The position numbers and the translations under genes are program-made. 64,000 bases of DNA from Spiroplasma phoeniceum (GTDB taxonomy: Bacteria; Bacillota_I; Bacilli_A; Mycoplasmatales; Mycoplasmataceae), in the NCBI GenBank assembly GCA_026239495.1, contig CP110830.1:1-64000 (forward strand), given 5' to 3'. The notes beneath the pieces were generated by a model. It made no database searches and was not told the DNA's origin. It saw only the letters and a program-made list of their open reading frames with translations. Below are positions 12,656 to 50,543 of this stretch, piece by piece (within the stretch, counting starts at the first letter, position 1; each line of letters begins with the position of its first letter).

Positions 12656-14032
12656 ATGAAAAATGATATGCGCGCTATATATGATAAAATGTGTGATACC
12701 TGTAAAAAAACCTTTAAAAAAATTATTTTAGCAATTCGTAGTGACCAAACAAAAGATGTTAATAATTTACTTCTTTTTGTTTGTAAAATTAATACAACAT
12801 TTACTCTTAAAGAAGATGCAGGAATAATGCCAATTGCATTAATTAATTGTAAGGACAATAAGTATACTTTTTTTTGAAAAAATAATTTTTTAGATGTCTC
12901 AGGCAATCCAAAAGTTCCTGTTGTTAACCAAACAATTCAATTATCAAAAGAAACAATTGACAAAATTCCAACTCATCGTCATTCGTTGCCAATTAAGTCT
13001 AAACCACCGATTGAAAAAGTTCCTGTAGTTCAAGAAAAGAAATTTGAAACATTAAAACCAATTCCTGAAGTAAAAAATAAATTAGAATTAGAGGTGGCAA
13101 GTAAAATTGAAATGCCAGATAATGATAAAAATAAGGATAATAATGATATTAAAGAAAAACCTATTGATTTGCCAACTGAATTAGTGATACCATCACCTTC
13201 AATTGACGGTGAAGCTATTGCTTTGGCAAAAAAAATGGAACCCGATTCTATGACATCAATGCGTAAAATTTTACATACTATTAACCGAAAAATACAATTC
13301 AAAATTTGAAGTTTAGTTGTTATTTTAGCAATATCACTTGTTGGTTTTGGCATTGGTGGATGACAATTATGAAAACACTTTGCAAACACTGCAAATAATG
13401 AAAATAGTGGTGGAGGCGTTAGTGAACGAACTAATATTACTTTATTAGGTGGCGACTTAAGTAAACAAGTTATTGAAATTGAAGATTCAAATAATTGGAT
13501 GGATTTATACGGTGCTTTATTAACCTTAGAAATTGGTTCCAAAAATGATGGGAAATTACAGCCACAACTGTTAGAAGCAATTAAAGATCCAGCCACTACT
13601 TTAACTTTTAGTAGTGAACGTTTTCACGAAGATAAAACAGCCTATGCAGCTACAATTATTATTGATACAGATAATTCAACTAATTTTTATGGTATTACTA
13701 ATATTGCAATCCAAGCTAAGTCAAAACGAATTAATATTATTAATTTGGGCACAAATTTAGCAGATACTCCTGTTGATATTTCAAGTGACATACCTAAAGA
13801 TATTTTATCAGCTATGATAGAAAATTCAGAAATTTCAAATGAGCTATTACCAGAATCATTAGCGTTTTTAAAAACGGCGCAAAAAGATGAAAATTTATTT
13901 CTAAGAATTGATGGTAGTGTTAATAAAAAACCTGACGCAACATCTGATGTGCAATTAGTTATTTTAGCGGATAAATCAAATCTTTATAAAGGAACAGCTT
14001 CATTTTTCTTGAAAGTAAAATGAAAATTATAA
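12656..14032 (+). CDS. Single-pass membrane protein with large extracellular domain
   Basis: 458 residues. RBS AAAGGAAG. The cytoplasmic N-terminal ~210 residues include CDTCKK and a Pro/Lys-rich linker (PPIEKVPVVQEKKFETLKP). One transmembrane segment, LVVILAISLVGFGIGGWQLW, lies at about residues 222-241. About 215 residues outside carry repeated Ser/Thr/Asn-rich beta-like stretches. TGA codons (12876 and others) are Trp. No family is recognised. The linker-TM-ectodomain layout fits a surface protein; the two N-terminal cysteines could bind a metal, but this is a guess. Confidence 0.7.
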
Positions 14033-14134: not shown

Positions 14135-14290
14135 ATGTATGCTTCAATTTATTGAACAGTTCAAGATATTAATGCAAATTTAATTTATTTAGAACATAAT
14201 AATTATTGTTATGAAATTAATTTAGTTACAAATAAATTATTTAAGTTTAAGAAAACAATACAGATTAATTATAGATTGCACCCAGTTTAG
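14135..14290 (+). pseudogene. Short ORF cut by an IS30 end
   Basis: Starts MYASIYWTVQDINANLIYLE at ATG 14135 after GGAGAG. It runs 51 codons until it enters the IS30-type terminal sequence (TGCACCCAGTTTAGTAAG), where it stops. It is probably the 5' part of a gene whose remainder was lost on IS30 insertion. No family recognised. Confidence 0.5.
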
Positions 14291-14326
14291 TAAGTATTAA
14301 TAAAAAAAGTTATAAACTTTTATTTA
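14284..14326. mobile_element. Solo IS30-type end
   Basis: TGCACCCAGTTTAGTAAGTA matches, in one orientation or the other, ends at 49112-49165, about 42880-42900 and 60739-60765. The transposase part is gone and IS-A copy 3 sits directly behind it. Confidence 0.6.
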
Positions 14327-14328
14327 TT

Positions 14329-15398
14329 AGACTTCTTGCATAACCCATTAAAATAATTTCAAATATTTGTAAAAAGGGGTTAATATAAAATTATAATTTT
14401 AATTAATTATGTCTTTTATTTAAAAATTTAATATTTTGCCACAACGAAAAATTATTTTATTATTCAAATTCGTTAATTTTAAATAAATCTTTTATGATAA
14501 CTATAATAATTGTAAATTATAAATTGAAGCAATTAAATTAAATCTTAAACTAAATCGTTTTCTACGATTTCTATATTTTTCTGTAATAATTTTAAATTTT
14601 TTAAGAATAGCAAAAATATTTTCAATAATAATTCTTATTTTTGAAACTAGTCTATTATGTTGTTTTTGTTCTTTATTTAAATGTTTTTTCTTAGTTTTCT
14701 TTGTGGGCATTATAACATTATTGTGAATTTTTTGTATTCCTTGATAACCACTATCAACTATTAATTTGGTATTTTTTAAAATTGCGATTTTTGATTCTTT
14801 AAATAAAGCATAATCGTGTTTTTTGCCAAGTGAAAAACTTGTTGCAATAATTTTTTTGGTTTCTTGTTCGATAATTACTTGTGTTTTAATAGTGTGTTTT
14901 TTCTTTTTACCAGAATAAGATTGTTTTTGTCTTTTTTTGGGCGTTGGATTGGGGTTTCGGTAGCATCAATAATAATAGTTTTATCATTAAAATAATCATT
15001 TATTAGTGCTTTTTTACCAGCAACTTGCTGAAAATCAGGGTGTTTAATTAAAATATCTTCAATTCACTTGATATTGCGATAACAATTAGCTTCACTAATT
15101 CCGAAATTTTTTCCAAGATGAAAATAAGTTCGATATTCTCGTCAATACGATAAAGTCATCAATAATCGATTTTCTAGTGATAATTTATTAGCTTTGCCAC
15201 CTTTTTTAAATTTTTCTATTTCAGCTACTTGTAAAATATCTAACATTTTATTAAAAATATCTTGTTTTATTCCTGTTAATCTTAATCATTCTTTATCATT
15301 AATATTTTTAAATTCATCAAATTTCATAATTTAATATCCTCATAAATTATATTTTATAATAATATTTTAATAATAAAACCAGGTATCGCAAGAAGTCT
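14329..15398 (-). mobile_element. IS-A copy 3 (IS5-like)
   Basis: 1070 bp with ATT duplications at 14326-14328 and 15399-15401. It is inserted immediately beside an IS30 end. Confidence 0.9.
14501..15327 (-). CDS. IS-A transposase (OrfA/OrfB joined by -1 frameshift)
   Basis: OrfA from ATG 15327 covers the N-terminal helix-turn-helix-like region and the first Asp (IIIDATETPI). At the run of seven A (CCC AAAAAAA GAC on the coding strand) a -1 slip enters OrfB: RQKQSYSGKKKKHTIKTQ, then LIVDSGYQGI and RIIIENIFAILKKF, ending at 14501. The fusion is about 275 residues with complete DDE. No other lesion is seen in this copy. Confidence 0.75.
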
Positions 15399-15454
15399 AT
15401 TATATATTTTTCTTTCCGAATTGAATATCATTTATTTCATTTTTTAACATCTGT

Positions 15455-16258
15455 AAATTGTAAATGCAAATTTAGCACTTTATGAACTATAAAATAAAGA
15501 TTTTTAAATTTTTAAAGATCTGTTATAAAAATTAAAGCAAAAATATCTTTTATTTTATGGCTTATTTTCGTTAATTAATTACTAAAATTAAATATTAAGC
15601 TTAAAACTAAGATTTTCATTCATATAAAAATTGCTACACTTCATAGTACAATTTACAATCATTAATATATTCATCATGAGATAAATAAATATTTTTATGA
15701 ATTGTTGCTTTTTTTAATAAATAATGAAAACTTTCAATAACAATATTATAAGCACAATGATAATTTTTATCCATAGAAATTCTAATTTTATTAGATATAC
15801 ATTTATTATTATATATTTTTGATGTGTATTGAAGTCCATGATCTGAATGAATTATTATGCTACTGAGATCTTTTTTTGTTTGTTTAATTTTATTAATTGC
15901 AGCATCTAAATTGTTCATAACAATTTTGTTATCATTATATTTTGATGACTGCATATCAACAATTTCTTTAGCATATCCATCAATTATTGTTGATTGATAA
16001 TGTTTTTTACCATTTCAAATTAAATAAGTTGCATCAGTAAATAAAACTTTAAATTTGCACAGTTTCAAATATTAGCACTTTTTATCTAAATTCAAATCTT
16101 AGTTTTAAGCTTAATATTTAATTTTAGTAATTAATTAACGAAAATAAGCCATAAAATAAAAGATATTTTTGCTTTAATTTTTATAACAGATCTTTAAAAA
16201 TTTAAAAAGATTGATTTTATATTTCATAAAGTGCTACATTTGCATTTACAATTTACAA
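15455..16258. mobile_element. IS-C (IS3-type) remnant with duplicated inverted ends
   Basis: The outer ends match (left TGTAAATTGTAAATGC; right, reverse-complemented, the same). About 170 bp inside each end are near-identical in inverted orientation, far longer than normal IS3 terminal repeats, so the same element end seems to be present twice. A transposase fragment lies between the arms. Confidence 0.6.
15634..16055 (-). pseudogene. IS3-type OrfB C-terminal fragment (IS-C)
   Basis: Reads KVLFTDATYLIWNGKKHYQ (first catalytic Asp), then SSIIIHSDHGLQYTSKIYNN (second Asp) and IESFHYLLKKATIHKN (catalytic Glu), stopping at 15634. The N-terminal half of OrfB is missing here; a matching N-terminal piece lies at 19198-19512. 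Confidence 0.7.
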
Positions 16259-17020
16259 TTAAAATGCTTTTTAATTCAAATTGAATTGGAGGAATTTTTA
16301 ATTTTAAAATCCTTCTATAATTATTATAATCAACAATATAATTATCTATCATATTTTTTAGCTCATTAAATTTTTGTATTTTGTTATATTTTTATTTTCT
16401 GTTTTTAAAATTGAAAACCAATTTTCAATAGGTGAATTATCTAAACAATTTCCACGTCGATACATACTTATAGTGACTCCATAATCTCTTAATAAATCAA
16501 AATATGCACGTGAAGTAAAATGAACGCCCTGATCAGAATTAATTATTAATTGACCAGGTTTAATTTTTCGATTAATTAAGCTTTGTTTTAAACAATTAAT
16601 TACTCAATTTACTGCTGGCCTTACTGTTAGTGAGTATCAAACAATTGCATTGCTAAATAAGTCTTTAATAGCAAATAAATATACTGATTCTGAATATATT
16701 TTAATTATTGTAATATCAATTGATCATTTTTGATTGATTTGATTAGAATGAAAATTACGTTTAAGTAAATAGGTGTATTTTTTATGTTCATATAACATAT
16801 TATTAAAATGTTTAATTCATTTTTTATGTTTAATTCTAACTTCAGAACATATTTGTAATATCTTCATATAACGATATACAGTGCTTGCTGATATTTTTAT
16901 TTTTTGTTCTTCCAAATCAAGTTTTATTTGTCGATGACCTTTATTTTTATTGTTTTTTCAAATTATTTTAATTATTTCTAATATATTGTAATCAATTTTT
17001 CATTCATATTTTTCATGAAT
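16259..17020 (-). pseudogene. IS-B (IS3-type) transposase, C-terminal part
   Basis: Homologous to the longer copy at 53126. It has the rve-type core: SIDITIIKIYSESVYLFAIK, LIINSDQGVHFTS and SPIENWFSILKTENK, reading toward 16259. The 5' part is cut off by IS-A copy 4 at 17024. At its 3' side the IS-B end is fused to the IS-C end. Confidence 0.7.
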
Positions 17021-17023
17021 ATT

Positions 17024-18093
17024 AGACTTCTTGCGATACCTGGTTTTATTATTAAAATATTATTATAAAATATAATTTATGAGGATATTAAATTATGAAA
17101 TTTGATGAATTTAAAAATATTAATGATAAAGAATGATTAAGATTAACAGGAATAAAACAAGATATTTTTAATAAAATGTTAGATATTTTACAAGTAGCTG
17201 AAATAGAAAAATTTAAAAAAGGTGGCAAAGCTAATAAATTATCACTAGAAAATCGATTATTGATGACTTTATCGTATTGACGAGAATATCGAACTTATTT
17301 TCATCTTGGAAAAAATTTCGGAATTAGTGAAGCTAATTGTTATCGCAATATCAAGTGAATTGAAGATATTTTAATTAAACACCCTGATTTTCAACAATTA
17401 GCTGGTAAAAAATTACTAATAAATGATTATTTTAATTATAAAACTATTATTATTGATGCTAACGAAACCCCAATCCAACGCACAAAAAAAGACAAAAACA
17501 ATCTTATTCTGGTAAAAAGAAAAAACACACTATTAAAACACAAGTAATTATCGAACAAGAAACCAAAAAAATTATTGCAACAAGTTTTTCACTTGGTAAA
17601 AAACACGATTATGCTTTATTTAAAGAATCAAAAATCGCAATTTTAAAAAATACCAAATTAATAGTTGATAGTGGTTATCAAGGAATACAAAAAATTCACA
17701 ATAATGTTATAATGCCCACAAAGAAAACTAAGAAAAAACATTTAAATAAAGAACAAAAACAACATAATAGACTAGTTTCAAAAATAAGAATTATTATTGA
17801 AAATATTTTTGCTATTCTTAAAAAATTTAAAATTATTACAGAAAAATATAGAAATCGTAGAAAACGATTTAGTTTAAGATTTAATTTAATTGCTTCAATT
17901 TATAATTTACAATTATTATAGTTATCATAAAAGATTTATTTAAAATTAACGAATTTGAATAATAAAATAATTTTTCGTTGTGGCAAAATATTAAATTTTT
18001 AAATAAAAGACATAATTAATTAAAATTATAATTTTATATTAACCCTTTTTTACAAATATTTGAAATTATTTTAATGGGTTATGCAAGAAGTCT
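17024..18093 (+). mobile_element. IS-A copy 4 (IS5-like)
   Basis: 1070 bp with ATT on both sides (17021-17023, 18094-18096). Left flank is IS-B; right flank is a 53-bp terminal piece of another IS-A. The matching ATT could come from insertion into that older IS-A, followed by loss of its left part. Confidence 0.88.
17095..17921 (+). CDS. IS-A transposase (OrfA/OrfB joined by -1 frameshift)
   Basis: OrfA 17095-17547; slippery A7 at 17484-17490 in frame as A AAA AAA; OrfB ends at 17921. DDE residues are present. Compared with other copies the first-Asp region reads DANETPIQRTKK instead of DATETPIQRPKK, which may matter for activity. RBS-like GAGG precedes ATG 17095. Confidence 0.72.
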
Positions 18094-18149
18094 ATTAACC
18101 CCTTTTTACAAATATTTGAAATTATTTTAATGGGTTATGCAAGAAGTCT
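18094..18149 (+). mobile_element. Solo 3' end of a second IS-A
   Basis: Repeats the last 53 bp of IS-A (AACCCCTTTTTACAAATATT to GAAGTCT) directly behind copy 4, preceded by ATT and followed by ATT. It is the leftover of an older IS-A that copy 4 hit. Confidence 0.75.
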
Positions 18150-18990
18150 ATTCAAATTGATGGAACTTATTTAAAAATGTGAAATGAAAATAAAAAGGGG
18201 AAAGAAAAAATAAAAAAACATAGTATATTTTCAACTGTTCATACTGGTTTTAATAAAACAAAATCAACTAAAAAAAAGGCCTGTAATTGCAAATAAATTA
18301 GGTGTTATAGAACTAGATAATATTCCAGAATATATTAAAAAAAATAGTAAATTAATTAATTTTGTTAGTAAATTACTTACATTAATTACCAGTTATTATG
18401 ACATTAATGACAATATTGAATTTATGGTATTAGGAGATGGTGCACTTTGAATTAAAAATATGGTAAAATTTATTCAAGAATATTTTCCTAAAAATAAAGT
18501 ACATTACACGATAGATAAATTTCACCTTACAAGTAGATTTAAAAAATTATATCCTCATCAAAGTAAAAACAAAGAAAACACAGAAACATACCATAAAGCA
18601 GTCGATTATTTTTTTAATGGTAAATATGAAGAATTATTAGAACGCGTAGAAAACAGTGCTTCTTTTATAAAAGAATCAAAAATGAAATTCTTAAAAGAGA
18701 CAATTAAATTAATTAAAAATAATGAAGAAAGTGTCAGAAATCAAACATTATGAAATAATATTGGTTGTCATATTGAGGGTGATATATCACATTACTGTAA
18801 GGGTGTTTTGGTTAAAAAAGCAACTTATCATGAAAAAACTATTAAAAATAAATTAAATACTAGTATGATGAATTTTAAAAATAAAATTAATTTATTTAAT
18901 ACTAATGAATCATTAGAAGAAAATAGAATTAATTATTCAGTTAATAATTTTGTAAATAATAGTTTACAATCAAACTTATATTTTTATTAA
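18150..18990 (+). pseudogene. ISLre2-family (UPF0236) transposase fragment
   Basis: Begins QIDGTYLKMWNENKKGKEK at the IS-A junction, so the 5' part is lost. Family signatures are VLGDGALWIKNMVKFIQEYF, VHYTIDKFHLTSRFKKLY, and CHIEGDISHYCKGVLVKKA. One frameshift lies in an A run near 18275-18283 (KSTKK to RPVIANKLG). Ends at TAA 18988. Confidence 0.8.
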
Positions 18991-19197
18991 TTTTATCTAA
19001 ATAAATTAAATAACTTTAATAAACATGTATTTTTGTCGTGGAAAAATTTAAAAATAATGAAAAAATATATTGACAATAAAATTAAAAGTAATACAATTTA
19101 ATTAAGTAAATTTCATATTATTCCACAATTTCTAAGATATTAATTAAAACCCTTAAATAATACATACAACCTATAAAAAAATCGTGCTAAATATTCA
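18991..19197. other. AT-rich debris between IS fragments
   Basis: No gene or clear repeat. It probably includes the 3' terminal part of the ISLre2 element. Confidence 0.35.
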
Positions 19198-19512
19198 TTA
19201 AAATTATTGCCTGATATAACATGTTTAAAGCGTAGTTATTGAGATAAATATAAAAATTATTTAAGTAATGGCAAGGATAACGAAACATTAAAGAATATTG
19301 TAAAATTCTATGAAGAAAATTTAAAACAATTTGGATATCGTCGGATAACTAAATATTTAAAAGAAGATTATGGCATTATTTATAATGCTAAAAAAGTATT
19401 ACGAATTATGAATGAAAATAATATTCAAGCTGAATATGTAAAAAGGATGCGTAAAAAAATATTACTAAAAAAGGCCAAAAATAAAAATATAATTAATGAA
19501 TATCTAAAATAA
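19198..19512 (+). pseudogene. IS3-type OrfB N-terminal fragment
   Basis: Encodes NIVKFYEENLKQFGYRRITK and DYGIIYNAKKVLRIMNENN, the HTH_21-like region preceding the catalytic core of IS3 OrfB. It stops at 19512, just before IS-D. The missing core resembles the fragment at 15634, so both may be from the same element type (IS-C). Confidence 0.65.
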
Positions 19513-19578
19513 AATTGACATAAAAAAGAGACAAACATTTTCTGTTATATAATTTTATTGAAAGGATGTTCGTTTCTT

Positions 19579-19905
19579 ATGGCAAAACAATGAAATAAAA
19601 ATGAAAAACTAGAAATTTTAACATTTGCTGAGTTAAATGGCATTAAACTAACAGTTCAAAAATATAACATAGCCAAATCTACCATACATAGATGACTTGT
19701 AGACGCACAAAACAATTTTGATAACCTAGAATGAGGTAGTTGATCTCAAAGTAAACAAAATACAAAAAGAAGAATTAGTATTTCAACAATTGACTCAAAT
19801 GATGTTAAAAAAATGTCACGTTCTGAATTAGAAGAGATTGATAAATTATATTTTTCATTAAAAAGCATGAGGCGAAGACTATTAAAGAAAAGTTCTTCGC
19901 AGTAA
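19579..19905 (+). CDS. IS-D OrfA
   Basis: 108 residues, MAKQWNKNEKLEILTFAELN, then an HTH KYNIAKSTIHRWLVDAQN (about residues 33-50) and a coiled C-terminal part (ELEEIDKLYFSLKSMRRRL). It is an IS3-type OrfA DNA-binding protein. OrfB lies in the -1 frame and overlaps its end near AAAGAAAAG, the usual place for IS3 programmed frameshifting. Confidence 0.8.
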
Positions 19906-20930
19906 ATAAATTATCAGCAGATTATTTTGTTGATTTTCTATCTGGAAAATTAGGGATAGCATTACAAAAGTTGAGGTTTTATAAAAAATATAAATAAAAT
20001 AATTGGATAAATTTTTAAAAATCCTGATTTATTAGTGTTTTAAATTCATCAATAACATTAAAAAAATACTTTTTATACCAAAACCTCAACCCTTTTCTTA
20101 CTACCAAATTAGGTATTACTAGAAAAGGTTATTACTTATGGATTAAAGAAGGGAAACCTATGTATAAAAAATATAATTTTGTTTTAGCAGAAATAATACT
20201 TGAAATATTTAATAAATTTAAAGGTGTTTATGGGTACCCAATGATTACGATTTTGTTAGAAAAATATAAAAATATCAAATTTAACAAATGAGTAGTCTAT
20301 CGCTATATTAAAATATTAAAAATTAAGTCTATTCGAAAGAAAATAAAACCGAATTATTTTAAATCAGGCCCTCTAAGATTCCCAAATATCTTAAAAAGAG
20401 ATTTTGTTACATCTGAACCAAACAAAAAATGATTGATAGATATAACATATTTACCTATTAATAATGGCGTGGTATATTTATCAATTATCCGTGATTTATT
20501 CAATGGTGAAATAATAGATTGAAAATTATCAAATCATGATGATGCTAATTTGAGTTTTAAGAATTTATTATCGGCTTGAAATTATGCAGGACGTCCCAAA
20601 AAATTAATTATTCATTCAGATCAAGGCTATGCATATGAATTGCCACAATGAAAAGAATTTTGTGAAAAAATGGTAATTATTATTTCGATGTCTCGACGTG
20701 TTAATTCACCAGATAATTGTGCTTGTGAAACTTGATTCAGTTCATTTAAAAATGAATGTTTTTTCTTATATAAACGAAAAAGTCTTAATTTTAGTAATAT
20801 TATGAACATTGTTTCAAATTATGTTGATTTCTATAATTTTGTCAGACCTAGAGTTAAACAAAGAAAAACTCCATTTGAACAACGAATGGAGTTTCAAAAT
20901 AAAAATGTCTCTTTTTTCTGTCAATTTTAA
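19890..20930 (+). pseudogene. IS-D OrfB, interrupted by MITE-1
   Basis: Before the MITE: VNKLSADYFVDFLSGKLG. After it: GITRKGYYLWIKEGKPMYKK, then KKWLIDITYLPINNGVVYL (first Asp), LIIHSDQGYAYELPQWK (second Asp), and SRRVNSPDNCACETWFSSFK (Glu), ending at TAA 20928. Removing the MITE with one copy of its 8-bp duplication gives a single open frame, so this gene was intact until the MITE arrived. Confidence 0.85.
19955..20105. mobile_element. MITE-1 copy 2 (151 bp)
   Basis: Starts GATAGCATTACAAAAG and ends CTTTTCTTACTACC, with inner arms GTTGAGGTTTT / AAAACCTCAAC. An exact 8-bp duplication AAATTAGG flanks it (19947-19954, 20106-20113). It codes for nothing. Confidence 0.88.
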
Positions 20931-21093
20931 TTGACATTGTCATTAAATATCATGATTTAGTAAATCGTAAATTTAATAAAATTAAAGAAAAAATTAAAGT
21001 TTTATACAATGTTTCTTTTAACTGAAAATATGAAATAAAAAACCTTTCTAGGTTATTATTAAAATATATAAAGTTAGGAGAAACATTTTTTAT
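20924..21093. other. IS3 debris
   Basis: Decayed sequence, including a stretch resembling the NRKFN region of IS3 OrfB, and probably the left end of IS-B. No intact gene. Confidence 0.35.
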
Positions 21094-21536
21094 ATGGAAA
21101 GGGGTAAAACTAAAGGGTCAAAAGACTATGATATTTAATTTAAAAATAAAATTATTAACGAATATTACGAATATAATAAATCAATATCTTTAATATCTAA
21201 AGAATATGAAATAAGTACTGCAACTATTTCTAGGTGAATTAATGTTTTCAATAAAGATAAAAAATTTGATAAACGAACATATATTAAAAAAATGCCGATT
21301 TTTAATAATCCGCATGATGAAACTATATATTTATTAACAAAAGAAAATGAACAAATAAAAGCAGAAAATAATATTTTAAAAAAGCTTGAATCTCTTCCAA
21401 AAACAAAAACAAAGATTAATATTAGAAAAAAATTGATTTTATTAAAAACGAATTAAATAACAACTCAATCTTGCCATTAAGATGATTTTTAAAAATATTA
21501 TGCATTTCATATGATACATGAAATAAATATAAAAAT
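21094..21536 (+). pseudogene. IS-B (IS3-type) transposase, 5' part
   Basis: ATG 21094, MERGKTKGSKDYDI then a TAA in frame, followed by FKNKIINEYYEYNKSISLIS and an HTH-like region, KEYEISTATISRWINVFNKD. A further frameshift lies near 21430-21460. It is cut at 21536 by an IS-A derivative. The homologous downstream part is at 53126-54128. Confidence 0.7.
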
Positions 21537-21836
21537 AGACTTCTTGCGATACCTGGTTTTATTATTAAAATATTATTATAAAATATAATTTAATATCCTC
21601 ATAAATTATATTTTATAATAATATTTTAATAATAAAACCAGGTATCGCAAGAAGTCTATTATAGTTATCATAAAAGATTTATTTAAAATTAACAAATTTG
21701 AATAATAAAATATTTTTTCGTTGTGGCAAAATATTAAATTTTTAAATAAAAGACATAATTAATTAAAATTATAATTTTATATTAACCCCTTTTTACAAAT
21801 ATTTGAAATTATTTTAATGGGTTATGCAAGAAGTCT
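21537..21836. mobile_element. Rearranged IS-A derivative with a 121-bp palindrome
   Basis: Positions 21537-21657 carry the 5' end of IS-A (AGACTTCTTGCGATACC...) twice in inverted orientation, about 55-56 bp per arm. Positions 21658-21836 are the 3' non-coding end of IS-A. The transposase is gone. AAT duplicates flank the whole unit (21534-21536, 21837-21839), so it behaves like one insertion, now lying directly against ruvA. Confidence 0.8.
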
Positions 21837-21947
21837 AATAATTTACAAAATAAAGTTATTAATTGTTTAAAAACATTAGGTTATTATTTAACAACTATTT
21901 ATCAAACAATTAATGCAATTAAACAACCACCAAAGCAACTTGACTAA
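21837..21947 (+). pseudogene. ruvA: ruvA remnant (C-terminal domain III only)
   Basis: 36 codons, LQNKVINCLKTLGYYLTTIY then NAIKQPPKQLD and TAA. This fits the C-terminal UBA-like domain of RuvA, the part that regulates RuvB. The Holliday-junction-binding domains I and II are absent: the IS-A derivative ends exactly where homology begins. ruvB follows 34 bp later, the normal gene order. Confidence 0.65.
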
Positions 21948-21981
21948 TATTTAAAAATAGTTTTAACAGCAATCACAAAAA

Positions 21982-22922
21982 ATGCAGTTATTTAATTTTC
22001 TTCCTGATAATTTTGAAACATATATTGGTCAAGAAAGTATTAAAACAAATTTAAAAATTATGATAGCAGCTAGTCAAAAACAAAAGTTGCCTTTAAAAAA
22101 TATTCTTTTTATTGGCGGTAGTGGTATGGGAAAACAAGTTTAGGATATTTAATTGCCAATTTATTAAAACAAAAATTACATCTTTTACATAGACCAAATT
22201 TAAAAAAACCAAGTAACCTTATTACTTGTTTAATGCAAATTAAATCTTTTGATTTAGTTTTTATTGATAAAATTCATACTATTAGTCAAGAAGTAAGTGA
22301 AACATTATATCCTGCTCTAGAAGACAATTACTTAAACTTAATTTTAGGAAAAGATTATAATACTAAAAATGTAGCATTATCATTGCCGCCGTTTATATTT
22401 TTAGCAGCAACAACTTTGTTATATCAAATTCCACAACTATTATTGAATCGTTTTACAACTGTTTTTTATTTTGAAGAATATAGTAATTTTGAAATTCAAC
22501 AAATTTTAAATAATTTATTTTTACAAGTTGGATTAGTTTTGCCAGCTAATTAATTACAATTATTAACAAGTTATACTCGTAATAATCCCCGCACCACTTT
22601 TCGGTTATTTTATCGAGTATATGACTATTTGGTTGTTAATTATCGTTCAATTGATCTTGACTTTTTAACATAAATTTTAAATAATTTAAAAGTATTTCAA
22701 GATGGGTTAGAATGAAATGAAGTTAATTATTTAAAACATATTTATCACCTTTTCCAACAAAAACCAGATGGTTTAGCAACATTAGGTCAAATTTTAAATG
22801 AACCTCTTTTAACAATTACCAATAATTTAGAACCATTTTTATTAAAAAGGGTCATTTGTTAAAAACCCGCACCCGGGGTATTAACATTAAAAGCAATTGA
22901 ATTTTTAAAAAAATTAACATAA
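21982..22922 (+). pseudogene. ruvB: ruvB, Holliday junction branch-migration helicase, multiply broken
   Basis: Length (941 bp) matches a full RuvB. The start MQLFNFLPDNFETYIGQESI is typical. The Walker A region reads GGSGMGK, then a 1-nt deletion shifts the frame before the expected TSLGYLIANLL. Walker B is VFIDKIH, where the family has DEIH, so the catalytic Glu is Lys. Later in-frame TAA codons occur after LVLPAN (22550-22552), after DFLT and after KRVIC. The AAA+ second half is still recognisable (FIFLAATTLLYQIPQLLLNR). The gene is certainly dead by several independent lesions. Confidence 0.82.
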
Positions 22923-22987: not shown

Positions 22988-23278
22988 ATGCAAAATCATC
23001 AAAAAGAACCACAACAAATTGCTAACTATGTTTTAAAAATGATTAGTTTAAAAACAGTAGATTTAAAGTTATTAAATCAAAATACTACTGAACAGGATGT
23101 TATTAATTATTTATTAAAAATAATTTTAGTTGATAAAAAAATTATTGATGTTAGTGACGCGGCTTATTATATTTTTAATATTAAACTTAACCGGATAATT
23201 GAATTTATGAATAATCAAAAAATTACTGATCCAGATCTATCGTTAGATGATTTTAAAGATATGTTTATTAAATCATAG
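22988..23278 (+). CDS. Small hypothetical protein between ruvB and secDF
   Basis: 96 residues, MQNHQKEPQQIANYVLKMIS, largely alpha-helical, with a conserved-looking pattern KIIDVSDAAYYIFNIKLNRI resembling a short helical DNA- or protein-binding domain. ATG 22988 after AAGGTG. No family recognised. Unlike ruvAB just upstream it is intact, so it may have its own role or share the secDF transcript. Confidence 0.65.
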   Translation: MQNHQKEPQQIANYVLKMISLKTVDLKLLNQNTTEQDVINYLLKIILVDKKIIDVSDAAYYIFNIKLNRIIEFMNNQKITDPDLSLDDFKDMFIKS

Positions 23279-23331: not shown

Positions 23332-26300
23332 GTGGTGTCAAGCGTGGGAAAGAAAGAAAAAGTTAAAATAATTAAAGAGACAAAAGATAAAAAAGCAATA
23401 AGTCGATTAATTATCGGAATCGGAACGTTAATTGTTTTAGTTATTGCTATGATTGTTGGTGCGCTTTTTTCAGCGGATATTTTTCGTTATTCATATCAAA
23501 CAGGAATTGCTTATTCAGGAGCATATCAAGTTCAAATTGATGTTTTTGACAAAAGAGACCCTAATTATTCACCGGATACTCCAAATGGATATAGCAAAAA
23601 AGGTTTAGAATTATTACGAAATAAATTAGACCCTTTATCAAACCAAAATTTATATTTACAAACATTAGGACGTAATTCGGTTGAATTTATTGGTGGAAAA
23701 GATAGGTTTAAATCTTATAATGACTTAAGTAAAATAATTCAACGATTAGGAGCAATTTATTTAACTGATAATAAGGGAAAAGATTTATTAATTAGTGATA
23801 ATAAAGGAACAAAAGAACGAACACCATTAAGTGATGTTATCTCTGGTTCAACAACAGGAGTTGACCAAGCACGTCGACCAATTATTACCTTACAAATTAA
23901 AAATCAACAAAAATGAGATAGCATTATTAATAGTTTAAAACCAGCAGAAGGAGGCGGACAAGCACAGCCATTATATATTTGAACTGATATTGGTCAAATG
24001 ATTGATGATTTACGTCATGATATTGATAATATACAAGCAATTGCAACTTTGTTTAGTATTGATATTCGTAGTAAGGTTTCTTCAACAGATTGAACAAATA
24101 TTTATCATATTTTTGATTTAGAATATTATGATACAGGGACTGCTCGAAGTCAGCATGGAAATTTGTTAGATTTAGCATTACTTTATCCAATTTCGCAAAT
24201 TAGAACATGAATGGAAGATAGTATTTTTCGTTTTACAACAGTACCGAAAAATCTTTTATTAATTGATCCAAATGATAAAAGTACTACAACAAATGCATAT
24301 ATTGATCCATTGCGTCCATATTTAAAAACAATTATTGAATATAATAGTGTTTTGACCGAAGCATATAAAAAATATATTATTAATTGAAATTCAATTAAAA
24401 TTGGAACTGGTGCAGCCGAAAATTCAAATCAAATTACAACATCAACCGAGACAGAAGCTCGTCAAATTAGTAACTTGATTAATGGGGGGCTAAGTGGACT
24501 AGAATTTACTATTCGCGGTTATCGTGAAATCCCACCGGTTGTTTCAGCAAATGTGTTTAAAATTTCAATGATTATTTTAGGTGTTCTAGTTTTAGCCATT
24601 TTTATTGTATTATTAGTTTATTATCGTTTATTTGGATTAATTGCCATCTTAACTTTATTGTTTACAATTATTTCAACCTTATATTTCTCATCTTTATTAA
24701 AGGTTGAAATTTCACCAGAAAGTATTGCCGCCTTAATTATTGTTTTTGGATTATCATTAGAAGGAAACTTGTTGTTCTTTTCACGGTATAAACGTGAGCG
24801 GCATCAAAATAACATCCCATTTGAACCAGCAATGAAAATTGCCAATAAACAAACAATTGCTGTTTTTATCGATGCTTTAGTTGTTTTAGTAATTTTAGGA
24901 CTGTCGCTATTTTGAATAGGAACTAATAATATTAAATCATTTACCACAATTTTATTAGTTGGTTTAATTATTTCAATTATTATGATTTTTGCCGTAGCGC
25001 GGTTAATGTATTGAATTGTCATTAAGTTACATTGACAAGAAAAATATCGTTGGTTAGATGTTTCACGATTTTCATTATGAACTTGATTGTTTAAGAAACA
25101 ATCAAGAAAACTAGCTACGGATGTTAAAATAGTGGATTATTCAACAACCGAGCTTCCATCTGATGTTGAAGTAAACCTGCCTGCTAATGCTGAAACAGAA
25201 TTATCTTATTCAGCACCTGTAGAAAATAAAAATCGTAAAAAATTAAAACATGGCAAATGAACCTTTTGTAATATTACAAAATTAAACCCAATTGTTGTAA
25301 TCATTTTATTAATAATTGCCTTAGCAATTGGTTTTGCTGGAAAAGCAAATGTTGCTAATACAATCAAACCAGGAATTAATATTACAGTTAATGAAGACTT
25401 GTGAGGAATAGATGGGTCTAAACAACTTCCAAATGAAGTTGCAATTGCCAAGTTAAATGCGCAAATTGAAGAGTATCGACAAACAACACGTCATAATTTT
25501 AGTTTTAATATTTATGTGATTAAACGACAAGATAGTGTTAATAGTAACCGTATTTTAGTTGTTAGTACAAATATTACGAAGGGTACTTTTGAACTTGAAT
25601 TGTTATCAAGCATTGCTTCATTTTATGGTGCTAGCCCGAGTGATACATCATTAGCGTTACAACAAACTGACCCAGTTATGGAAGGTTATATCTTAAAAAT
25701 TGCGGCAATTAGCCTGGCAATTGGTTTAGCATGTATTTTTGTTTATACATTATTCCGCCTGGATTGAGTACAATTTGTTGTAATGGTGTTATCCGCAATC
25801 TTTACGTTAATTGTTACTATTGCAATTGCGATTATTACGCAGTTGTTAATTACCTTTGAAATGTCAATTGCGTTCTTAACAATTTTTGGGTTTGCAATTG
25901 CTTTTGGAACAATGCTAATGGTGTGTGCAAAACAAAATAAAAAAGCAATTAATATTAGTGAGTATGAAACATTCTTTGCCTATATGTCAGAACATCGTGC
26001 TCAAATTAAACGTTTACGTCGTGCTCATAATGTTTATTATCAAGAGGAATTAAAAAAACTAGCAGTTAAAAATCCAGATTTAAAATTAAAAGAATTGAAA
26101 AAACAATATCGCGACCAATTGCACCGGGTAGAATTGGTGGCAAAAGATATTAAAAGTAAAAACCATAAAATCATCCGAGAAATTCAAAAAGAGTTTCGGA
26201 TCTATAATTATGAACATAGCTTTTTACAAAAAGTTGCTAATATTACAATTAAACAAATGTTACAGCACTGTTTAACATTAGGAATTATATTTGCAATTTT

Positions 26301-26520
26301 ATTAATTACTTTAGCGGCTTTTTCAGGAACATGATTTGGTTTTAATGTTGTTATTTTAATTGGTTTAATTATTGGGATGTTTGCGACATTATTTGTCGCA
26401 ATCCCAATTTGAGTAGCATTAGAAAAATATCGTGTGTTAAATAAAATCCGTGTTAAAAATTACTTAGATTCACAACGTGTTGAAGTTGACGAACAAATTG
26501 TTGTTGGAATTAATGATTAA
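23332..26520 (+). CDS. secDF: SecDF fused protein-export membrane protein
   Basis: About 1062 residues with many TGA=Trp codons; ends at TAA 26518. SecD and SecF are fused in one chain, as in Bacillus. It uses the proton gradient to help SecYEG finish translocation. The N-terminal helix is LIIGIGTLIVLVIAMIVGAL. The SecD membrane block begins VFKISMIILGVLVLAIFIVL after GLSGLEFTIRGYREIPPVVS. The SecF half begins near IVVIILLIIALAIGFAGKAN, with its own domain and second block (YILKIAAISLAIGLACIFVY). The long cytoplasmic insert between the last helices (about 26000-26240) is basic and helical. GTG starts are possible at 23332, 23335 or 23344; no RBS decides. Confidence 0.9.
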
Positions 26521-30776: not shown

Positions 30777-33533
30777 ATGACAAAATTTACAGCAAATGCA
30801 ATTCGAAGAATGTGGTTAGATTTTTTTCGCAGTAAGGATCATTATGAATTACCTTCATTATCATTGATTCCTGTTGATGATCCGTCATTATTATGAATTA
30901 ACTCTGGTGTGGCGACATTAAAGCCATATTTTGATGGGCAAAAAACACCATCATCACCACGCTTGACAAATTCACAAAAATCAATTCGAACTAATGATAT
31001 TGAAAATGTTGGTTATACAGCACGTCATCATACTTTGTTTGAAATGCTTGGTAATTTTTCAATTGGTGATTATTTTAAAAAAGAAGCAATTATGTATGCT
31101 TGAGAATTTTTAACTGATAAAAAATGAATTGGGTTTGATCCCGCCAAATTATATGTCACAATTTATAAAGATGATGAAGAAGCTTATGAAATTTGACGAA
31201 ATGTAATTGGTTTAAGTGATGAACGAATTTTTAAAGGTGATAAGGATACTAATTTTTGAGAAATTGGGGCCGGACCATGTGGACCTAATACCGAAATTTT
31301 TTATGACCGTGGGGAAAAATATGATCCTGAGCAATTAGGATTAAAGTTATTGCAAGATGATTTAGAAAATGATCGCTATTTGGAAGTTTGAAATATTGTT
31401 TTTTCACAATATAATAATAATGGTGGCGGGACATATACTGACTTACCGCGGAAAAATATTGATACAGGTGCTGGATTAGAACGAATTACTTCAATTATTC
31501 AAGAAACACCAACTAATTTTGAAACTGATTTGTTTATGCCAATTATTAAAGCGGTTGAAAAATTAGTAAATGGAAAGTTTCATTATGATGAAACAGCATT
31601 GTTTAACAATAATTCAGAACAATTAAAAATTAATACTGCATTTAAAGTAATTGCTGATCATATTCGTGCAGTTACTTTTGCAATTGCTGATGGTGCTTTT
31701 CCGGGGAATAAAGATCGCGGTTATGTTATTCGGCGGTTAATTCGTCGTGCTAGTTTATATGGGAAAAAAATTGATTTAACAGAACCATTTTTATTTAAAT
31801 TAGTGGGAACAGTAGTTAACATTATGCAAGAATATTATTCTTATCTAGTTGAAAAACAACCAATTGTTGAACAAGCTGTGTTAGATGAAGAAAATAAATT
31901 TTTGAGAACATTAGAACAAGGAAACAAACTTTTTAATGAAGTTAAAACAAAATATGGCACTATTTCAAAAGAACATGCCTTTCGTTTATTTGAAAGTTAT
32001 GGTTTTGCAATTGAATTAATTGAAGAAGAAGCACGCGAAGCAGGAATTAGTGTTGATCGTGTTGGTTTTGATGAATTATTAGAAAATGCAAAAACAATTT
32101 CACGTACTAATAGAAAAGAGATTAAAGCAATTCATTTACAAAGCGAACTTTTTACCAAGTTAGATGTTGCTAGTCAATTTGTTGGTTATGAACATGAACA
32201 AGTTAATAATACAGAAATTGTCTTTATGTTTGCTGATGATAAACCAGTCATAGAATTAACTAATACAACAGGATATATCATTTTAAAAGAGACACCATTT
32301 TATGCTGAAAAAGGGGGGCAAGCTGCTGATCGCGGATTGATTTTAAAAGAAAATACGAAAGCCTATGTTCTCGATGTACAAAAAGGGCCAAATAAACAGA
32401 ATTTACATTTTGTTAAAGTTGAAGGGACACTTAAGATTGGAGATTTGGTCAATGCGTCAATTGACAGTGATCGTCGTTTTTATACGCGGAAAAATCATTC
32501 AGGGACACATTTGATTCATGCCGCTTTACGAGAAGTGTTAGGAAACCATGTTATGCAAACTGGTTCTTATAACGATGATGAACGTTTACGAATTGATATT
32601 ACACATAATAAAGCAATTACACCAGCAGAAATTACAGATGTAGAAGCTTCTGTTACAAAAGCAATTAAGGCCGCAATTCCTTGTGAAGTTATTTATACTG
32701 ATATGCAAACAGCATTAGATGTGCACAATGCTTTAGCTTTTTTTACAGAAAAATATGATGATGAGGTTCGAATTGTTAAATTTGGTACTTATTCTTGTGA
32801 ACTTTGTGGAGGAACCCATGTGACTAATTCACAAGATGTTGAAGATTTACTAGTAACTGGTTTGGAATCAAAAGGAGTTGGAACATTTCGAATTCATTCT
32901 ATTACCTCAAATAAAACAATTGCTAGTTATCTAAATGAACAATTTTTAAAAGAAAAAAATGAAGCAATTAATTATTTTGATAAGTATAATCAAGGCAAGA
33001 AAGAATTACCTGACCAACGTTTAGAACAAACTTCAGAACAAATTAGTAATTTAACTGTTTCAAAAACAAACTGGAAACAGTTAAAAGAGTTATTAGTACA
33101 ATTTAAAGAATATTTTAAACATTGACAAAAAAAATATGATAATATTTTAATTCAACAATTTGTCAAACAATATAATACCTTGTTACCACAAACTAAAAAT
33201 GGAATTAATGTTTTAACTCATCAATTTACAACAAAAGTTGATATTAATGCTTTAAAAGTGTTAATTGATGATTATAAAGTTCGATATCAAAACTTACTAA
33301 TTTTCTTAGTTGATGTTAGTGATGAAAAACAAGCCACATTAATTGTTGGTGTTAGTTATGATTTACAAGATCGCTATCAAGCCGGAAAAATTATTCAACA
33401 ATTGATTCCATTATTAGGTGGTAAAGGTGGCGGAAATAATAGTGTTGCTCAAAGTGGTTTTAACAATAAAGACAAAACCTTACTTGTTAAATTATTTTCT
33501 GACCCTCTAGAATTTTTAAAACATCATGGCTAA
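30777..33533 (+). CDS. alaS: Alanyl-tRNA synthetase
   Basis: 918 residues. Class II core: [77 protein letters not shown] and [12 protein letters not shown]. Editing domain: [19 protein letters not shown] (HxxxH zinc ligands) with [17 protein letters not shown]-like Cys/His ligands further on ([18 protein letters not shown]). C-Ala domain ends [15 protein letters not shown]. Charges tRNA-Ala and clears Ser/Gly mischarging. It overlaps ruvX by 8 nt, suggesting translational coupling. Confidence 0.95.
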
Positions 33534-33945
33534 GTATTATTTAGGAGTTGATGTTGGTAGTAAAACACTAGGGTTAGCAACAAGTTGGGGATTGATTGCG
33601 ACTGGGTATGGTGTTTATAGTTTTCCAGAAAATGATTTTGCACAAGCAGCACAATATTTAGCGGAGTTAATTACAACTAACCAATTTAGTGATATTATTA
33701 TTGGCTATCCAAAAAATATGAATAATACAATTGGACATCGTGCTTTAATGGTTAATGATTTTGCTAATATTTTAAAACAATTATTAGAAGCAACCACAAC
33801 AATTCACTTAGTTGACGAACGGTTAACAACACGTCAAGCTCATCAAATAATGTTAGAAGCAAATCTTTCGCGTGAAAAACGAAAACAAAAAAAAGATAGT
33901 TTAGCAGCGCAATTAATTTTAGAAACATATTTACAACAGAAATAA
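33526..33945 (+). CDS. ruvX: RuvX/YqgF putative Holliday junction resolvase
   Basis: 139 residues. RNase H-like fold: YYLGVDVGSKTLGLATS (first Asp), DIIIGYPKNMNNTIG, IHLVDERLTTRQAH (Glu/Arg pair) and KKDSLAAQLILETYLQ (last Asp). Relatives process pre-16S rRNA and may cut Holliday junctions. ATG 33526 lies inside alaS, so the two are translationally coupled, as in other Firmicutes. It is intact while ruvA and ruvB nearby are dead, which fits its main role being in rRNA processing. Confidence 0.9.
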   Translation: MAKYYLGVDVGSKTLGLATSWGLIATGYGVYSFPENDFAQAAQYLAELITTNQFSDIIIGYPKNMNNTIGHRALMVNDFANILKQLLEATTTIHLVDERLTTRQAHQIMLEANLSREKRKQKKDSLAAQLILETYLQQK

Positions 33946-50241: not shown

Positions 50242-50274
50242 AATATAAAATTGAAGGCAGAAGTCAATTATCAT

Positions 50275-50543
50275 TAATATTTTTGATGCAGATATCATCA
50301 ATTAAAAATATATAAAATAATAATAATGTTAAAAATTTATATTTACAAGTATATTATACAAATGATATGAAATTAAAAATTAGATTTTCAAAAGTAATAT
50401 GACCAAAAATTATTAGCACTTATTACCCTGAATATAAAAAATTTGGAAATTTTAATAATTTCACTTTTTCAAATAATTCTGATAAATTAAATTTTACTAA
50501 TAAAAGCAACAATCCGGTTAAAATTACATTTAAACCAAGATAA
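50275..50543 (+). pseudogene. Phage-type protein C-terminal fragment
   Basis: Encodes NVKNLYLQVYYTNDMKLKIR, FSKVIWPKIISTYYPEYKKF and NKSNNPVKITFKPR, ending at TAA 50541. It is probably the C-terminal end of a DUF3688-like lipoprotein whose N-terminal part is g one, judged by its neighbour on the opposite strand. A strong terminator follows. Confidence 0.4.

Follow-up and report, generated by a model that had tools for sequence, protein, structure and literature searches.

Probable recent pseudogenization of ruvA and ruvB within a wider collapse of homologous recombination in a Citri-clade Spiroplasma

The window, i.e. the whole 64,000-nt stretch of DNA that was analyzed, belongs to a Spiroplasma genome (G000) whose single 2.18-Mb contig was covered by the whole-genome searches. 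In this window, ruvB occupies positions 21982–22920 on the forward strand and, judging from its sequence, comparison with close relatives and dN/dS, is a pseudogene. The lesions for which the first-pass annotation had declared this gene dead were all found. Compared to close relatives, the Walker A region has a 1-nt deletion within a run of A (at ~22131); a GAA to AAA substitution (E to K) at 22268–22270 changes Walker B from DEIH to DKIH, two in-frame TAA codons (22551–22553 and 22671–22673) were made by substitution, and small indels lie at the 3′ end (~22845–22880). Both homology and gene position identify the sequence as ruvB: its pieces match RuvB_N (PF05496) in two frames, with 87.6 and 32.3 bits, and adjoin ruvA, a 96-aa gene and secDF, as in the relatives. 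No continuous frame with both Walker A and Walker B is present, so that this is a pseudogene rather than a working member of the family. A second ruvAB elsewhere in the genome had been considered at the outset; the RuvB_N search of the 2.18-Mb contig detected no second ruvB, only the two pieces within 21982–22920, and the other matches are weak, fall in intact frames of 471–588 aa and are present in all relatives.

The gene order around this locus (upstream gene, ruvA, ruvB, 96-aa gene, secDF, apt) is conserved among relatives, and the DNA at ruvAB is ~95% identical to that of S. phoeniceum P40 (G007), which argues against the relics being chance similarities. The reading frames of the nearby secDF, apt, rel, alaS and ruvX are uninterrupted, which disfavors general assembly noise. 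Among these neighbors, the open 96-aa gene (22988–23278, forward strand), which belongs to no Pfam family, always lies between ruvB and secDF, and its product shows 60–97% identity across the genus. The secDF-like gene (23332–26520, forward strand, 1062 aa) served as the syntenic anchor and as a control for decay. The ruvX/YqgF gene (33526–33945, forward strand) is recognized by PF03652 with 120 bits; any role for it as a replacement of RuvAB or RecU would be hypothetical. Within the window, neither Rfam families nor tRNA genes were detected.

The ruvA gene is broken into two pieces. According to the first-pass annotation, only its last 36 codons survive, beginning exactly at a derivative of the insertion sequence IS-A (IS5-family). 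The junction was correctly placed: the 3′ remnant (21837–21993, forward strand; identified from the sequence and alignment to relatives) starts at 21837, exactly where an internally deleted IS-A derivative ends (21585–21841, forward strand; 21585–21663 corresponds to one end of IS-A and 21657–21841 to the other). The extent was underestimated, given that the 36 codons end at a premature TAA (21945–21947), at a site where relatives have Q, with ~14 further ruvA codons behind it. Nor is the 5′ part gone, because a tblastn search with an intact RuvA located it ~7.6 kb upstream of the 3′ piece, with query residues 7–50 matching 14135–14266 directly after the conserved upstream gene. This 5′ remnant of ~46 codons (14135–14273, forward strand) was delimited by tblastn, translation and DNA identity to S. 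phoeniceum, which is 95.5% through 14273. Thus, the two pieces are 7.56 kb apart, ~254 bp of ruvA is missing compared to S. phoeniceum and an extra stop is present, so that there is no single continuous ruvA gene. Taken together, the state of both genes supports the conclusion that RuvAB is non-functional in G000, as far as function can be predicted from sequence.

The intervening cluster of mobile elements (14274–21836, no strand assigned) was defined by self-comparison of the window, Pfam searches, IS5-family matches in plasmids and comparison with G007. It contains two full IS-A copies of ~1.08 kb (14324–15403 and 17019–18098), IS3-type transposase genes, a UPF0236 fragment and other IS fragments. 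The stretch 18274–18987 resembles the UPF0236 gene of Spiroplasma phage MaM-2019a (70% identity), and a further fragment in the window, at 50259–50540, resembles a large hypothetical protein of the same phage (44% identity). An imperfect palindrome of 127 bp (94%) at 21534–21660, beside the IS-A derivative, consists in part of IS-A end sequence. Positions 12656–14032, immediately before ruvA, encode a 458-aa protein that belongs to no Pfam family; homologues sit at the equivalent position in several relatives, in some of which they are broken.

We compared 14 Spiroplasma genomes (G000 to G013), including S. phoeniceum P40, S. poulsonii MSRO_BK (G008) and genomes that we take to be S. citri R8-A2 (G002), S. 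kunkelii (G004), S. melliferum (G005) and S. atrichopogonis (G006). In the tree, G000 groups with G007 and G004, next with G012 and next with the pair G002 and G005; G000 is a separate tip, with a secDF 88% identical to that of G002. If G002 is S. citri R8-A2, as we take it to be, the host is not S. citri, the species that the first-pass annotation had brought in for comparison. A broad reduction of homologous recombination had been anticipated, and more genes are hit than was guessed. RecA (PF00154) had no match at E ≤ 0.001 in G000, and none was found in G004 or G011 either. Synteny indicates that recA was deleted in G000, rather than truncated as in S. citri: on one side, pgsA and a remnant of cinA, its initial ~31 codons, are located at 632.7–633.6 kb; on the other, the downstream neighbor of recA ends close to 590.7 kb, and recA and most of cinA are missing. 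The former recA-cinA site (positions 590731–632733 of the contig) holds 42 kb between the flanks; its two ends, the parts that were read, contain IS copies, prophage-like genes, a RecT gene and a truncated RuvC-like open reading frame (ORF). The recO gene is split by ~3.2 kb of IS-A DNA and also contains stops. Stops and frame changes have degraded recU as well, recR shows a frame change in addition to its stops, and in rarA a stop is accompanied by frame changes and by an insert that is GC-rich. This insert, at ~1465.76 kb, has facing runs of G and C and is hairpin-like, in a genome of 25% GC. With its gene broken, RarA was dismissed as a backup for RuvAB; RecG was dismissed as well, being absent in all 14 genomes in a search in which the control passed its cut-off in 8 of the 14. 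UvrB is full length in every genome, G000 included.

Thus, G000 lacks RecA and RecG and has lost RecO, RecR, RecU and RuvAB, and all seven recombination genes in our status table are damaged. All seven are open in G001, G003, G009, G010 and G013 (RecU falls short of the reference end in two of these), and the remaining genomes show partial damage. Among the compared Citri-clade genomes, ruvAB is damaged or undetectable in all except G005, where for G004 and G011 this status refers solely to a missing RuvB match. The loss of ruvAB appears as one part of a wider collapse of homologous recombination.

The dN/dS of ruvB is 0.125 for the intact genes of G009 and G010 and 1.15 (0.60–3.4) for G000 vs. 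S. phoeniceum; secDF yielded 0.13 and 0.63 for the same pairs, so that part of the ruvB signal reflects genome-wide relaxation. For ruvB of G005 vs. G007 and of G005 vs. G012, dN/dS is 0.12. The lesions in ruvB fall at different places in G000, G007 and G012: G007 and G012 have one stop each, at different sites, and neither stop is shared with G000. Together with the dN/dS values, this indicates that selection acted on ruvB until recently and that each line lost the gene on its own. Self-comparison of the window gave mostly 97.8–99.6% identity among its IS-A copies, and synonymous divergence between G000 and S. phoeniceum is ~5%. Because the identity among IS-A copies exceeds similarity at synonymous sites, the burst of IS-A, to which the copy at ruvA belongs, is estimated to be younger than the split from S. 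phoeniceum. Hence the burst appears to overlap the decay of the recombination genes rather than clearly predating it, contrary to the early suggestion that the rearrangements might have come before the loss. The order of loss varies among sister species, with G012 and G005 being opposite cases. G012 has recA in one uninterrupted frame, whereas little is left of its ruvA, its ruvB contains a stop and no RarA match was found; with ruvAB dead while recA is open, loss of RecA did not come first in this line. In G005, ruvA and ruvB are open and recA is stopped.

The RecT gene at the former recA site matches PF03837 with 159.9 bits over positions 2–188 of the 198-position profile, i.e. most of its length, and also matches phrog_148. 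Altogether, RecT matches in the G000 chromosome number 15, of which several are partial, and each of seven other genomes has 2–18. RecT of G000 is 84–93% identical to that of Spiroplasma phage MaM-2019a (OL689226, OL689230), in which the gene following RecT was annotated as RuvC-like by the depositors (HHpred, 99.76% to RuvC 4KTW). Intact-looking RuvC-like ORFs follow RecT in G000 near 685.0, 876.8 and 1158.6 kb, with the conserved motifs GIDPSGTGT, IEDC and HLRDAIIIA; profile searches assigned them to no Pfam family and produced a weak match to phrog_1770, 'Holliday junction resolvase' (E 0.02–0.04). With respect to the first-pass suggestion that rearrangements use routes independent of RecA and RuvAB, candidates are thus available, on paper only, in the form of transposases and phage RecT with its RuvC-like neighbor.

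In an assembly this rich in IS, errors of sequencing or of assembly could mimic pseudogenes, and the Walker A deletion is indeed a homopolymer indel, in a run of A, within a repetitive region. Errors of this kind fit poorly with stop codons and an E to K change that result from substitutions, or with a 7.56-kb IS cluster accompanied by the loss of 254 bp; furthermore, sister species carry similar yet independent damage, and the long adjoining genes are open. We regard this explanation as having a next to negligible probability. Nearly as improbable is the possibility that ruvAB was lost once, in the ancestor of the Citri clade, such that all present copies are old relics. The presence of damaged or undetectable ruvAB in every compared genome of the clade other than G005 is what such an event predicts, but ruvA and ruvB of G005 are open, the low dN/dS of G005 ruvB vs. 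both G007 and G012 is at odds with old relics, and the single stops of G007 and G012 differ from each other and from those of G000. On these grounds, namely lesions that are not shared and uninterrupted ruvA and ruvB in G005, a single ancestral loss was rejected.

The remaining alternative concerns cause rather than state, namely, that phage-borne RecT together with a RuvC-like protein took the place of the host pathway and thereby brought about its decay. Each of the 8 genomes with RecT is damaged in one recombination gene or more, and RecT was not found in any of the 5 fully intact genomes; in G000, RecT and RuvC-like ORFs that look intact lie side by side, and the stretch where recA used to be includes a RecT prophage. 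However, when mapped on the tree, the association between RecT and decay reduces to two independent contrasts and cannot reach significance. G006, in which no RecT was found, has damaged recombination genes and thus lost the pathway without it. The reverse causation, whereby prophages pile up in decayed genomes, fits as well, and so does shared host biology; moreover, the RuvC-like match is weak in G000. The full form of this proposal would be that, in Spiroplasma, a mobile phage module of RecT and a candidate RuvC-like resolvase carries out so much of recombination that the host RecA-RecOR-RuvAB-RecU pathway became dispensable, that the pathway decays where such prophages become established, and that the rearrangements are driven by annealing of nearly identical IS copies without RecA; we consider it unlikely, both as a replacement and in this extended form.

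The explanation that we favor is that ruvA and ruvB are, very probably, recent pseudogenes in a Citri-clade Spiroplasma that lost the RecA-dependent recombination pathway. The sequence shows that IS elements split ruvA, which lost its middle part, and that ruvB succumbed to point mutations and small indels. RecA-dependent strand exchange presumably ceased to matter in the G000 line; RuvAB, RecU and RecOR would then have lost their substrate, and selection on them would have vanished for this reason. IS insertion and ordinary mutation could then have removed these genes separately in each species, and the present rearrangements would stem from transposition and, possibly, also from annealing by phage RecT.

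In host-restricted bacteria that lack RecA, RuvAB is absent wherever RecA is absent, and few other recombination proteins are left; RecG is absent from all mollicutes (Rocha et al. 2005, PMC1193525). G000 resembles these bacteria in that RecA and RuvAB are both gone, but differs in that the relics are still readable, in a 2.18-Mb genome full of mobile elements; also unlike those cases, relatives of G000 show both orders of loss. In S. atrichopogonis, recO, recR, recU and ruvB are pseudogenized or absent, along with an invasion by mobile elements (Lo et al. 2015, PMC4607517); by comparison, the losses in G000 extend to ruvA, which IS elements have split, to rarA and to the entire recA. Citri-clade Spiroplasma are described as RecA-deficient, with recA truncated, frame-shifted or missing, in passages of PMC3563533 and PMC12453411, and S. 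poulsonii MSRO is counted among such cases in PMC8208695; the passages concerned deal with recA and contain no description of ruvAB loss in the clade. The loss of ruvAB in G000 is, then, a further case of the decay known in Spiroplasma and in RecA-less genomes. It is a recent one, in which the whole homologous recombination pathway has been dismantled and the nucleotide excision repair gene uvrB kept, and the relics show how each recombination gene died. Less ordinary is that G000 and most of its similarly decayed relatives carry phage-borne RecT genes. Both phage MaM-2019a and G000 have RecT followed by a putative RuvC-like gene; G000 differs in its 15 chromosomal RecT matches. Rearrangement is heavy in these genomes despite the lack of RecA, and the co-occurrence with phage RecT provides a testable candidate for how it takes place.
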